Assembly (NCBI RefSeq): GCF_003584015.1
Contig: NZ_QXFM01000015.1
Span: forward strand, 1-64,000
Origin: Aurantiacibacter xanthus
GTDB taxonomy: Bacteria; Pseudomonadota; Alphaproteobacteria; Sphingomonadales; Sphingomonadaceae
Direction of reading: 5' to 3'
DNA length: 64,000 bases
Shown here piece after piece: positions 7,928 to 51,504 of this stretch (positions within the stretch are counted from its first letter, which is position 1; the number at the start of each line of letters is the position of its first letter). The notes under the pieces are model-generated. The model saw only the letters and a program-made list of their open reading frames with translations, made no database searches and was not told where the DNA came from. The position numbers and the translations under genes were made by a program.

Positions 7928-7951
7928 TCACCATCTGCGTGATGACAAACC

Positions 7952-8058
7952 ACCCCCGCTCGCCCTGAGCTTGTCGAAGGGCTGTTGTTTCTTTGCGGGC
8001 AAGCGAGAGGCCTGAAGGAAGGCCGATCCTTCGACAAGCTCAGGATGAGCGGGGGTGG
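7952..8058. repeat. Long palindromic repeat, CCTGAGCTTGTCGAAGG family (copy 1)
   Basis: The left arm at 7952-7981 and right arm at 8028-8058 are near-perfect inverted copies (core CCTGAGCTTGTCGAAGG), with about 45 bases between them. It sits exactly between the convergent ends of the EF-hand gene and trmFO, so it could terminate transcription in both directions. Related copies are at 23850, 28896, 45576 and 51396. Confidence 0.85.
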
Positions 8059-8059
8059 G

Positions 8060-9427
8060 TTAGGCCGGAACCGTGCCCACCCCCGCCAGCCATTCGCCGA
8101 AATCGGCTTTGCCGCGCTCGGTATAGGCTTCCTTGCGCTGCTTCTTGTGGACCTCGTGCAGCGGCGGAAACAGGCCGAAGTTGATGTTCATCGGCTGATA
8201 GCTCGAGGCCTCGGCATCGCCCGTGATGTGCGAAAGCAGGGCGCCCAGTGCCGAGGTCGGCGGGGGCGCGGTCCAGTCGGTGCCCGCAAGTTCGGCCGCC
8301 GCCATCATTCCTGCGACCAGCCCCACGGCCGAGCTTTCGACATAGCCCTCGCAGCCCGTCACCTGCCCGGCAAAGCGGATATGCGGCGCGCTCTTCAGCC
8401 GCAGTTGGCGGTCAAGCAATTCGGGCGAGTTGATGAAGGTGTTGCGGTGCATCCCGCCCAGCCGCGCGAACTCGGCGTTTTCCAGCCCCGGAATGGTGCG
8501 GAACAGCTCGACCTGCGCGCCATATTTCATCTTGGTCTGAAACCCGACCATGTTCCACAGGGTGCCGAGCTTGTTGTCCTGCCGCAGCTGCACCACGGCA
8601 TAGGGCCAGCGGCCCTGCGGGTGCTCCTCATTGGTGTCGTAGGGATTATCGAGCCCCACGCCCTTCATCGGGCCGTAGCGCAGCGTCTCGACCCCGCGCT
8701 CGGCCATGACCTCGATCGGCATGCAGCCGTCGAAATAGGGGGTGTCGGCCTCCCACTCCTTGAACTCGCCCTTTTCGGCGTCGAGCAGACCCTGGTGAAA
8801 GGCGAGGTACTGCTCTTTGGTCATCGGGCAGTTGATATAGTCGCCGTCCTCGTTCGAGGCCTCGGTGCGCTTGTTCCAGCGGCTCTGGATCCAGCACTTC
8901 GACATATCAATCGAATCGCGGTGCACGATGGGGGCAATGGCGTCGAAGAAGGCGAGCCGGTCTTCGCCGGTGGCCTTGACGATGGAGCTGGCCAGCTCGG
9001 CAGCGGTGAGCGGGCCAGTGGCGACGATGGTGAGCCCGCTCTCCGGTAGGGCCTCGACCTTCTCGCGCACGATCTCCACGTTCGGATGCTCGCTCAGCAC
9101 GCGCTCGACCTCGGCGGAGAACACGTCGCGGTCGACCGCCATGGCGCTGCCCGCCGGAACGCGCGCTTTCTCGCCCGCCATCATCACCAGCGAGCCCAGC
9201 CGCCGCATCTCGTGGTGCAGCAGGCCGACCGCGTTCTTGGTGTCGTCGTCGGAGCGGAACGAGTTGGAGCAGACCAGCTCGGCCAGCCCCTCGGTTTCGT
9301 GGGCGGGGGTCTTGCCGCCGCCGCCGCGCATTTCCGAAAGGCGCACCTTCACGCCGCGCTGGGCGAGCTGAAACGCCGCTTCCGATCCGGCGAGGCCGCC
9401 GCCGATGATGTGTACCTGATGAGTCAT
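8060..9427 (-). CDS. trmFO: Methylenetetrahydrofolate-tRNA (uracil-54-C5)-methyltransferase, FAD-dependent
   Basis: A 455-residue flavoprotein that makes ribothymidine at position 54 of tRNA, using methylenetetrahydrofolate as carbon donor and FADH2 as reductant. The N-terminus [17 protein letters not shown] is the FAD dinucleotide-binding motif. The family segments [21 protein letters not shown] and [10 protein letters not shown] are present, and the length matches the family. I start at the ATG at 9427 ([10 protein letters not shown]). The frame stays open further upstream, but those residues are not part of the family. Its 3' end abuts a palindromic repeat. TrmFO is typical of alphaproteobacteria, in place of TrmA. 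Confidence 0.95.
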
Positions 9428-23849: not shown

Positions 23850-23946
23850 CACACCCGTTCGCCCTGAGCTTGTCGAAGGGCTGTATTACTCTTTTGTCGA
23901 ACCTGTGAAGAGAAGTGCAGTGCTTCGACAAGCTCAGCACGATCGG
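23850..23946. repeat. Palindromic repeat, CCTGAGCTTGTCGAAGG family (copy 2)
   Basis: Inverted arms near 23859-23881 and 23921-23940 share the core GAGCTTGTCGAAG. The element lies between glyQ and glyS and ends only a few bases before the glyS start. It may form a stem that shields the glyS translation start or reduces read-through. Confidence 0.8.
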
Positions 23947-23954
23947 AGTATGTG

Positions 23955-26162
23955 ATGAGCGATTTCCTGCTCGAACTGCGCTGCGAGGAAATTCCCGCCC
24001 GGATGCAGGCTGGCGCGCGCGCTGAACTGGCCAAACTGTTCGCCCGCGAGATGGACGCCGCCGGTGTTTCTGTGGGCGAGGTCGAGGTTGTCTCGACCCC
24101 GCGCCGTCTGGCGCTGATCGCCAAGGGCCTGCCGCAGGCAACCGAGGCGGTGCGCGAGGAGGCCAAGGGCCCGCCGGTCGGCGCGCCCGATGCCGCCGTC
24201 GACGGTTTCTGTAACAAGAACGGCGTCACCCGCGACCAGCTCGAACAGCGCGAGGTCAAGGGCCGCGCGACATGGTTCGCCGTGATCGAGAAGCCGGGGC
24301 GCGCCACCAGCGATGTTCTGGCCGCAGCGATTCCGGCGATTATCCGCGACTTCTCGTGGCCCAAGTCGATGCGCTGGGGTGCGGCCTCGCTCTCGACCGA
24401 GTCGCTGCGCTGGGTGCGTCCGCTGTCGGGCATCGTGGCGCTGCTGGGCGGTGAACTGGTGCCCTGCGAAGTGGGCGGGATCGCCTCGGGCCGCGTGACG
24501 CGCGGGCACCGGTTCCATTCCTCGGGCGACATCGAAATCGCGAACGCAGGCGACTATGCCGCCAAGCTGCGTGCGGCCCATGTGATCGTCGACCATGAGG
24601 AACGGCAGAACATTATCCGCGAGGGTGCCGCTAAGGCTGCTGCCGCTGCGGGGCTGACGCTGGTCGCTGACGAGGGGCTGGTGGTGGAGAACGCTGGCCT
24701 GACCGAATGGCCGGTGCCGCTGCTGGGCCGCTTCGACGAGGCGTTCCTCGACGTACCGCCCGAGGTGATCCAGCTGACGGCGCGGGTGAACCAGAAGTAT
24801 TTTGTCTGCGAGGATGCGCAGGGCAAGCTCGCCAATGCCTTCGTCTGCACCGCCAATATCGTGGCCTCCGACGGCGGCGCCGCGATTGTCGACGGCAACC
24901 GCAAGGTGCTGGCGGCGCGGCTGAGTGATGCGCGGTTCTTCTGGGAACTCGATCAGAAGACCAAGCTGCGCGAACAGGCGAAAAAGCTGGAACGGATCAC
25001 CTTCCACGAGAAGCTCGGCACTGTTGCCGATAAGGTCGACCGGGTGGCGAAGCTGGCCGCATGGCTCGTGTCCGATGCTCGCGCGCCCAACGGCGATCAC
25101 AACCTTGCCCGTCAGGCAGCCGAACTGTGCAAGTCCGACCTCGTCACCGAAATGGTCGGCGAGTTCCCCGAGCTTCAGGGCCTTATGGGCGGCTATTATG
25201 CCGAGAAGGAAGGGCTGGACCCGCAGGTTGTCGCTGCGATCCGCGATCACTACAAGCCTGTCGGACAGGATGACGAAGTGCCGACTGCGCCGCTTACGGT
25301 GGCCGTGAGCCTTGCAGACAAGCTCGATAACCTGTTCAGCTTCTTTAACATCGATATCCTGCCGACCGGTTCGAAAGACCCCTTCGCGTTGCGCCGTGCG
25401 GCGCTGGGCTATCTGCGGCTGGTGCAGGCCAACGGGCTTGAGCTGTCGCTGGAGCAGGCGGCGCAAGCATGGGGCGGCCTTGGCCGGGCCAAGCTCGGTA
25501 CCCGCGTTTCGGAGTTCCTGTCCGACCGCCTTGCCGTGCAGCTGCGCGACGAGGGTGTGCGCCACGATTACATCGCTGCGTCGCGCGAGTGGAAGGGCCA
25601 GCCTGACAGCCGCACCGACCGGATCGAAGCGCGCGCACGTGCGCTGACATCGTTCCTCGAAACCGAAGACGGCACCAACCTGCTCGCCGGCTACAAGCGC
25701 GCGGCCAACATCCTCAAGAAAGAGGACTGGGACATAACTCCCCTCCCCACAGGGGAGGGGCCGGGGGTGGGGGATGCCACGTCCGATCCGTCGCATACCC
25801 ACCCCAACCCCTCCCTTGAGGGAGGGGCTTTTGCGGCCACCGGCGACGAAGACCCGCTCGACAATGTCGACGATCCGCAGATGCGCGACATATATGCCGA
25901 ACAAGTCCACGAACCCGCCGAAGCCGCGCTGATCGCAGCGCTCGCCGAGGCCGAGCCGCGCGCCGCCATGGCCGTCACCAACGAGGACTTCGCCGCCGCC
26001 ATGGCCGCGCTTGCCTCGTTGCGCGCGCCAATCGACGCATTCTTTGACAATGTCACCGTAAATGACCCGGATCAGAACAAGCGCAAGGCCCGCCTTGACC
26101 TGCTTGCGCAATTCCGTGTTGCAGTGCACAAAGTTGCAGATTTCTCGAAGATCGAGGGCTGA
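23955..26162 (+). CDS. glyS: Glycyl-tRNA synthetase beta subunit with an in-frame repeat-derived insertion
   Basis: 735 residues of the tRNA-binding beta chain. The start MSDFLLELRCEEIPARMQ is the family N-terminus; a GTG three bases upstream is possible. The HD-like core (LFSFFNIDILPTGSKDPFALRR) and the anticodon-binding C-terminus are present and undisrupted. Residues 594-626 (TPLPTGEGPGVGDATS then HTHPNPSLEGGAF) have no counterpart in the family as I know it. They are encoded by a GC-rich palindromic repeat of 99 bases, exactly 33 codons, at 25734-25832. The insertion lies in a linker before the C-terminal domain, so the enzyme is probably active. It partners glyQ. Confidence 0.95.
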   Translation: MSDFLLELRCEEIPARMQAGARAELAKLFAREMDAAGVSVGEVEVVSTPRRLALIAKGLPQATEAVREEAKGPPVGAPDAAVDGFCNKNGVTRDQLEQREVKGRATWFAVIEKPGRATSDVLAAAIPAIIRDFSWPKSMRWGAASLSTESLRWVRPLSGIVALLGGELVPCEVGGIASGRVTRGHRFHSSGDIEIANAGDYAAKLRAAHVIVDHEERQNIIREGAAKAAAAAGLTLVADEGLVVENAGLTEWPVPLLGRFDEAFLDVPPEVIQLTARVNQKYFVCEDAQGKLANAFVCTANIVASDGGAAIVDGNRKVLAARLSDARFFWELDQKTKLREQAKKLERITFHEKLGTVADKVDRVAKLAAWLVSDARAPNGDHNLARQAAELCKSDLVTEMVGEFPELQGLMGGYYAEKEGLDPQVVAAIRDHYKPVGQDDEVPTAPLTVAVSLADKLDNLFSFFNIDILPTGSKDPFALRRAALGYLRLVQANGLELSLEQAAQAWGGLGRAKLGTRVSEFLSDRLAVQLRDEGVRHDYIAASREWKGQPDSRTDRIEARARALTSFLETEDGTNLLAGYKRAANILKKEDWDITPLPTGEGPGVGDATSDPSHTHPNPSLEGGAFAATGDEDPLDNVDDPQMRDIYAEQVHEPAEAALIAALAEAEPRAAMAVTNEDFAAAMAALASLRAPIDAFFDNVTVNDPDQNKRKARLDLLAQFRVAVHKVADFSKIEG
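25734..25832. repeat. Palindromic repeat inserted in frame in glyS
   Basis: It begins with CCCCTCCCC-ACA-GGGGAGGGG and ends with CCCCTCCC-TTGA-GGGAGGGG, the two hairpins flanking a GGGGGTGGG/CCCACCCC pair. The element at 47337-47432 has the same layout, there between genes. Its length is a multiple of three and it holds no stop codon in the glyS frame. Confidence 0.85.
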
Positions 26163-26217: not shown

Positions 26218-28884
<2,667 letters not shown>

Positions 28885-28895
28885 CAGTTTTACCT

Positions 28896-28939
28896 CCGCT
28901 CACCCTGAGCTTGCCCTTCGACAGGCTCAGGGTGAGCGG
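28896..28939. repeat. Compact palindromic repeat after ppdK (copy 3)
   Basis: A perfect 15-bp inverted repeat (CCGCTCACCCTGAGC and its complement) with a 14-base loop containing CCCTTCGACA. It is a compact member of the CCTGAGCTTGTCGAAGG family between the convergent ppdK and methyltransferase genes, where it can act as a bidirectional terminator. Confidence 0.85.
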
Positions 28940-28950
28940 ACGGTGTCCTG

Positions 28951-29697
28951 TTATTTGCGGAATCCGCTGAGCGTCAGGATCTCGAACTCTTCGGTCCGGC
29001 GCTCGGCTCCGTCCATGAACTTGGCGGCGGCCAGCGCGGCCTGAGCGCGGCTGAGCCTCGGCACCGGCGAGGCCAGCGCGCGGCTGAGACCCTGAGCGCG
29101 CAAGTCGCGCAGAAGGTGGGCGAAGCTGCGGTAGCTGACCGAAAGCGGGCGCGAATCGACCACCGGGCTGGCATAGCCGCAGCGCGTCATCAGCTGACCG
29201 CCCGCGCGCACGTCGACCATCGGGTGCATGTGCGCCGCAGGCCGCTCGCCATCGGCGGCGAGCATGGCGTCGCGCAGCGCCGGAAGGCTGCCCGCGCCGG
29301 GGAAGCTCGCCACCATCAGCCCGCCGGGGCTGAGCGCACCGCGCAGATGGATCAGCGCGCCGGGCAGGTCGTTCACCGTGTCGAGCGTGCCGAAGCTGGC
29401 GATGAGGTCGAACCCGCCGACGGGGAAGGGGGTCTCCTCGTCAAAACCCTCCTCGGGGTGCAGCGAGACCACCTCGCAGCCGTGCGGCAATTGCGGCACG
29501 AGAAGGCCCGACCATTCGCCGATCAGCAGCGCGCGCGCGGGCACGTGACGCAGGAAGGCGAGGCGTTCGACCACGTCGTCGACCATGTCGTCGAGCAGGA
29601 AGCGTGCCTCATCGCCACGGGCTTGCATGGCGCGCATGCGGCGGCGGATGGCGAGGCGGCGGGCAGGGGCGAAAATCGTCGGAACGGGGGGAGTCAT
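28951..29697 (-). CDS. SAM-dependent methyltransferase-like protein (NDUFAF5/BioC type)
   Basis: 248 residues with a Rossmann-like methyltransferase core: ALLIGEWSGLLVPQLP as a degenerate motif I, FDLIASFGTLDTVNDLPGAL as motif IV, and LRGALSPGGLMVASFPGAG as motif V/VI. The glycine-rich loop is altered (GEWSG instead of GxGxG), as in the alphaproteobacterial and mitochondrial NDUFAF5-like group. A role in respiratory complex I arginine modification is therefore possible but unproven. It is divergent from comF, with 41 bases between starts, a pairing seen widely in alphaproteobacteria. Confidence 0.75.
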   Translation of the reverse strand: MTPPVPTIFAPARRLAIRRRMRAMQARGDEARFLLDDMVDDVVERLAFLRHVPARALLIGEWSGLLVPQLPHGCEVVSLHPEEGFDEETPFPVGGFDLIASFGTLDTVNDLPGALIHLRGALSPGGLMVASFPGAGSLPALRDAMLAADGERPAAHMHPMVDVRAGGQLMTRCGYASPVVDSRPLSVSYRSFAHLLRDLRAQGLSRALASPVPRLSRAQAALAAAKFMDGAERRTEEFEILTLSGFRK

Positions 29698-45557: not shown

Positions 45558-45575
45558 GCTGGGCTCCAGCACCCA

Positions 45576-45680
45576 CACCCGCTCATCCTGAGCTTGTCGA
45601 AGGATAGGCACAACCCTAAGCCAGCCATGGGGCCAGTGTCGCGGCCATGCTTCGACAGGCTCAGCATGAGCGGGCGTTGG
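45576..45680. repeat. Palindromic repeat, CCTGAGCTTGTCGAAGG family (copy 4)
   Basis: Inverted arms near 45577-45605 and 45648-45673 share CTGAGCTTGTCGAAG and CTTCGACAGGCTCAG. It lies between yraN and gshB and may separate the two transcription units. Confidence 0.8.
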
Positions 45681-47336: not shown

Positions 47337-47432
47337 CTCCCCTCCCCTTGGGGAGGGGCTGGGGGGTGGGGGTTCGACGCTTGCTTGCGCGGAACCCCCA
47401 TCCCAACCCTTCCCCAAGGGGAAGGGCTTTGC
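47337..47432. repeat. Paired GC-rich hairpin repeat (CCCCTCCCC family)
   Basis: It opens with CTCCCCTCCCC-TTG-GGGAGGGG and closes with CCTTCCCC-AA-GGGGAAGG; GGGGGGTGGGGGTTC and GAACCCCCATCCC pair between them. This layout matches the glyS insertion at 25734. It lies between the convergent dedA-like and xerC genes. Confidence 0.85.
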
Positions 47433-51372: not shown

Positions 51373-51395
51373 GGTATTCTCCAAATTCGCGAACC

Positions 51396-51504
51396 CCACA
51401 CCCGCTCACCCTGAGCCTGTCGAAGGGTCGTTATTGTTTGCTGGCGCCCCGCTTGGAGAAAAAGCAGTCCCTCGACAAGCCTGTCCTGAGTTTATCGAAG
51501 GGGT
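51396..51504. repeat. Palindromic repeat between rph and hrcA (copy 5)
   Basis: The left arm near 51402-51426 and right arm near 51470-51501 carry CCTGAGCCTGTCGAAGG-type sequences, the right arm with an internal duplication. It fills most of the promoter region between the divergent rph and hrcA, leaving about 50 bases before hrcA. No CIRCE sequence is visible here. Confidence 0.75.

Follow-up and report, generated by a model that had tools for sequence, protein, structure and literature searches.

The window analysed in this work (a 64,000-nt stretch of Aurantiacibacter xanthus DNA) is part of contig C146 in a genome of 4.38 Mb and 146 contigs (G000, the source genome). The genus belongs to the Erythrobacteraceae, Sphingomonadales. 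The glyS gene (23955..26162, + strand) encodes a 735-aa glycyl-tRNA synthetase beta subunit (TIGR00211, 723 bits; PF02092) and is the sole glyS found in the source genome (one match). An AlphaFold2 model of GlyS (41 rows) has a mean pLDDT of 87.8 and aligns to E. coli GlyRS (7eiv_D) over 538 residues with Z 34.6 and rmsd 4.5. Residues 598-633 show pLDDT below 50 and no secondary structure in this model; they sit between a helix at 571-589 and the C-terminal helices, and the PF05746 DALR domain begins at residue 646. The short glyQ-glyS spacer contains a TCGA-type palindrome, GAGCTTGTCGAAGG..CTTCGACAAGCTCAG, at 23855-23946, and more copies of this type are found in the window at 7947-8061, 28879-28956, 45571-45680, and 51395-51431.

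Inside glyS lies a CTCCCC-type double-hairpin (REPIN-like) repeat at approximately 25738..25832 (+ strand), in frame at residues ~595-626, as judged from the sequence, genome matches, aligned copies and fold. The left hairpin (25740..25760) has a 9-bp stem with a 3-nt loop, CCCCTCCCC(ACA)GGGGAGGGG, and the right hairpin (25808..25827) has a 9-bp stem with a 2-nt loop, CCCCTCCCT(TG)AGGGAGGGG. Both stems are perfect, and the inverted layout is as in other copies; in the glyS gene of G020, the left hairpin recurs with loop GCT and the right one with loop CA. The 95-nt repeat reads in the glyS frame as TPLPTGEGPGVGDATSDPSHTHPNPSLEGGAF. The first-pass annotation had described an in-frame palindrome at 25734-25832, and the frame is indeed open throughout. 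Its comparison to an intergenic element at 47337 was also borne out (47337..47431, 72% identity over 95 nt, E 1e-9). The count of 33 extra residues (~594-626) is correct for the segment, but the net gain is only 29 codons (87 nt) as measured by the WD to GDEDP distance in G014, whose C-terminal part is the most similar among the relatives, because part of a variable linker was replaced. Folded as RNA, the repeat reaches -66.8 kcal/mol (z = -5.8, 200 dinucleotide shuffles), and equally strong folding was seen in 0 of 400 99-nt windows drawn at random from the 64 kb. Together, the fold energy and the comparisons with shuffles and random windows argue against a chance origin of the palindrome. 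The 64-kb window gave no Rfam match at gathering scores. In the predicted structure, the repeat segment forms a disordered linker. An assembly error at this glyS site seems unlikely, as the open frame and the independent inserts in relatives speak against it.

The glyS repeat has at least 33 matches in the source genome (E<=0.001, both strands, itself included; 40 of 60 candidates scored), some of which cover one hairpin only. DNA identity to the other places in this genome is 73-97%, and the best full-length match is 78%. In the genus set (forty genomes, source genome included) 25 genomes are matched, with up to 87% identity. The six best DNA matches beyond the window's glyS copy are all in other species: G020 glyS site 1 (87%) and G036 glyS site 1 (83%), a loop described below, followed by G016 C52, G020 uvrA, G020 ileS and G028 ileS. 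Aligned copies start with CTCCCC and end with GGGCTTT, or nearly so. Pfam was applied to 38 of the 47 ORFs that span a repeat (29 loci in the source genome) and three carried domains. In the source genome, the domain-bearing ispE ORF has the repeat inside the gene, as empty sites in relatives show; in a glycosyltransferase frame and a lactamase-fold frame the repeat precedes the domain. The repeat also precedes the domains of a RimM frame and a LysR frame in other genomes. Another member of this repeat family, at L029 (1501-1537), sits just ahead of, or in, the apparent signal peptide of a secreted protein. A longer hairpin loop as a mark of in-gene copies was also considered: it is present in six CCCCTCCCC-stem copies that lie within genes (glyS, ispE, uvrA, two ileS and ubiG-like) versus 1 of the 21 other copies with a readable loop (Fisher 2e-5). 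This idea was dropped and is not relied on, because similarity to the window's copy is how most in-gene copies were found, and because the ispE insert of G028 is an exception.

Alignment of GlyS from relatives confirmed the expected gap in the C-terminal linker (site 3): relatives without the repeat exist at the window's place, and no homolog with the same segment but no repeat was present among the GlyS rows read. A repeat at this place is found in 4 of 37 readable genus genomes. G007, G013 and G028 carry a different repeat there (VTPAQAGVQ.. or VTPAQAGAQ..), which by our own reading of the sequence would be CGTC-type; its palindrome score exceeds all shuffles in G007 and does not in G013. 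The site-3 segment GEIARTGEEDPLALVDDPD.. of many relatives was rejected as a repeat, and 13 of 67 site-3 segments beat all shuffles. The linker at the window's place also differs in length between the relatives read. Such variation is what one would expect if the glyS segment were ordinary lineage-specific sequence that is merely palindrome-like; the 73-97% identity to other places in the source genome, the matches in other genomes and the two perfect hairpins make this exceedingly improbable.

A second GlyS loop, site 1, follows 'WL..EEGIV' (window residues ~375-383) and is a coil between helices in the model. Site-1 inserts are present in 13 of 37 readable genus genomes. The anchors are 33-46 residues apart in 12 insert genomes versus 6-7 elsewhere (16 in G031); G028 is outside these 12, its glyS being split. 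The G028 split (L065/L066, halves ~127 kb apart) is probably an assembly fault and was not taken as real, because the first half ends in a fold-back onto its reverse complement, followed by an N. Among GlyS sequences from the best 80 of 569 named genomes, site-1 inserts extend to Sphingomonas, Sphingobium, Novosphingobium and Sphingopyxis. For the tree, eight rows from six genomes were removed as truncated or split, together with three genomes that were duplicates; of the 110 GlyS rows left, 43 have a repeat-type insert at site 1 by our labels, while outgroup Alphaproteobacteria have none (0 of 9 rows). By blastn, 46 site-1 inserts (including two duplicates and G031) fell into groups of 18, 18, 5, 2, 1, 1 and 1 at E<0.01, and into groups of 16, 16, 5, 2 and 2 plus five singles at 1e-4. 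The labels are CTCC (18), CGTC (15), RGGG (5), TCGA (4) and other (1), with the singles and one pair labeled by eye and L115 counted as CTCC despite having no 7-bp hairpin. On the basis of these groupings, site-1 inserts derive from at least four unrelated families. The inverted-repeat score is higher than all 60 shuffles in 26 of 46 inserts versus 8 of 452 control windows; the other 20 inserts do not exceed all shuffles by this score, which needs loops of at least 3 nt and is therefore blunt for 2-nt loops. The G002 insert DNA has 22 hits in its own genome and, used as query, found no match in 4 of 10 genomes, among them G014 (whose own insert is labeled CGTC-type). In six further genomes (five Sphingobium/Sphingomonas and one MAG) the insert DNA has 24-60 hits in its own genome on both strands. 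Repeat-like segments also occur in the loop after GlyS residues 286-292 (nine rows) and at position 191 (one row, L147). Two loops of Sphingomonadales GlyS, and probably three, carry in-frame repeat-type segments.

The first-pass annotation had also called for a search for in-frame repeats in other genes, and this search led to ileS, uvrA, ispE and probably ubiG. IleS, UvrA and IspE were chosen for further reading because repeat matches led to them. IleS has inserts at HPM..PGDFV in 3 of the 27 sequences read from 30 loci (G020, G028, G017) and at a second place in 3 of 12 read (G017, G028, G008). UvrA inserts were found in 7 of 30, the window's genome included; the palindrome in that uvrA belongs to another family with 36 hits in its own genome (both strands). 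IspE inserts are present in 3 of 28 read (G000, G022 and G028; the G022 insert has no right half) and the other 25 are empty. Seven of the 16 UvrA, IleS and IspE inserts exceed all 60 shuffles and nine do not. In G028, a repeat copy lies inside a methyltransferase domain, presumably that of UbiG. In the source genome, core genes thus contain three repeat inserts or more (glyS, ispE and uvrA).

Turnover of inserts was followed on a GlyS core tree (quick method, single gene, site columns removed, G028 left out), in which recombination could inflate the counts of changes. Insert presence requires 27 changes versus a mean of 34.1 and a least value of 28 in 200 shuffles. Family labels require 41 changes (shuffled mean 40.5), and families within insert-bearing rows require 22 (shuffled mean 20.6). 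It was concluded that presence is partly inherited and family hardly so, since presence lies below all shuffles and family is close to the shuffled value. Sister species differ in insert family, and at site 1 G023 carries a CGTC insert versus CTCC in G013, with flank DNA identities of 93% and 85%. Genomes with more CTCC copies outside the four genes also tend to have more CTCC-type inserts within them (rho 0.77, n = 33). Inserts were counted by eye with unfetched loci scored as zero, and for four genomes the copy hits are lower bounds. This correlation fits a spill-over from a multiplying repeat, filtered by tolerance.

The same observations bear on whether the inserts are selected, that is, whether altered linkers in synthetases and repair enzymes usefully change activity or regulation. 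Core enzymes are hit again and again, as this would predict; yet family labels change about as often as in shuffles, insert number tracks the repeat load and many close relatives have no insert, and we consider selection for the inserts quite improbable. The earlier suggestion that repeats make useful new loops is likewise not favored, as the inserts turn over quickly and depend on the repeat load, both of which suggest tolerance. Alternatively, the loops could be true insertion hot spots, with a mobilizing activity or replication-linked template switching preferring these DNA sites, in which case insert position would reveal target preference as well as tolerance. At site 1, the start points of inserts from unrelated families downstream of EEGIV do differ by only a few codons, and that one place is occupied in more than a third of the rows (43/110). 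Against this, the empty-site DNA of GlyS site 1, UvrA, IleS and IspE (four or five rows each) has no common motif by eye, and the GlyS insert places are loops in the AlphaFold2 model. A Y1/RAYT transposase was searched for with PF01797, a model that hits 5 of 14 controls (E. coli among them); it had no match in the source genome and was absent in 37 of 40 genus genomes (three matched). Hot spots are thus unlikely in our view, less so than selection.

We conclude that a CTCCCC-type palindromic doublet, one of several repeat families, was inserted in the GlyS linker and is tolerated there (probability roughly 0.85), and neutral or selfish repeats tolerated in linkers are the best explanation for the inserts. 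In this reading, several unrelated repeat families multiply in Sphingomonadales genomes, and the doublet inserted in the linker from the GlyS body to the C-terminal anticodon-binding (DALR) domain. The GC-rich copies of the source genome are nearly stop-free in all six frames: outside glyS, 77 of the 84 frames of its copies are open versus 62% for shuffled copies, and for copies in other genomes 66 of 96 (shuffled 55%), with extents set by BLAST coordinates. A copy that fits the frame could therefore be translated as a Pro/Gly-rich disordered segment. Freedom from stop codons is not general across insert families; unused frames of site-1 inserts are open in 25/75 (CGTC), 43/90 (CTCC), 17/25 (RGGG) and 9/20 (TCGA). 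Selection would purge any copy that disrupts the reading frame or falls in a structured part. The surviving copies would thus accumulate in the small number of core-enzyme loops able to take up additional residues, and captured ones may later be deleted or replaced. We tentatively extend this to 'revolving-door' loops in GlyS, IleS, UvrA and IspE, where the capture, loss and exchange of unrelated palindromes may roughly keep pace with speciation, perhaps with some target preference or linker selection; this broader reading is somewhat less likely than not.

According to PMC2229807 and PMC2996958, Rickettsia, Wolbachia and others have palindromes that code for protein. Rickettsia palindromic elements (RPE) are 105-146 bp long and are described in the former as in-frame insertions in conserved protein genes, with 19 reading frames affected and the insert-bearing gmk product active. 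The likeness drawn to them at the outset is apt: both are dispersed palindromes that lie in frame within conserved protein genes, here in a linker. The present case differs in its Sphingomonadales host, its GC-rich sequence and several families at one loop, and the two are likened by how they work. The statement that no report existed for this family was wrong. PMC3733652 (2013) names tRNA synthetases of 'E. lithoralis' and S. alaskensis among the genes with intragenic REPs, so that the in-frame repeat phenomenon in this family is not new. That text describes intragenic GTAG/CGTC REPs in ORFs of many species (including uvrA in other species), more than half of them dimers or groups that encode 20-30 residues, and CGTC REPs without transposase association. 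In the same text, recB has about the same insertion site and elsewhere the sites differ, whereas the same loops are reused here. Other inserts at the same loops look CGTC-type, but the window's element lacks a GTAG or CGTC terminus. It resembles REPIN/RAYT systems in having two inverted REP hairpins, ~95 nt and many dispersed copies, and differs in that the PF01797 transposase was not found in the source genome. No report of same-loop reuse by unrelated families in Sphingomonadales was found in the literature listings (subscription papers and supplements aside). What appears to be new is that the element lacks GTAG/CGTC ends and that unrelated repeats have reused the same loops.

So far, in-frame palindromes have mostly been reported as scattered examples. 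Throughout this order, unrelated repeats have struck repeatedly at the same loops in several core enzymes. Which loops accept ~30 extra residues, how fast inserts turn over and whether insertion is targeted thereby become measurable, and revolving-door loops, if true, would amount to a natural experiment in linker insertion that is still going on. For Sphingomonadales, gene annotation and indel markers should be used in the knowledge that they contain repeat-derived segments. A further GlyS region at residues ~497-517 (site 2, window 25443-25505) is 8-103 residues long and very different between congeners (loci L047-L060). Its sequences are dissimilar and do not look repeat-like, and it was set aside from the repeat claim. 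The LAYG-to-HPM editing-domain region of IleS (L206-L235) is 55-101 residues long and highly variable between congeners, like this GlyS region.
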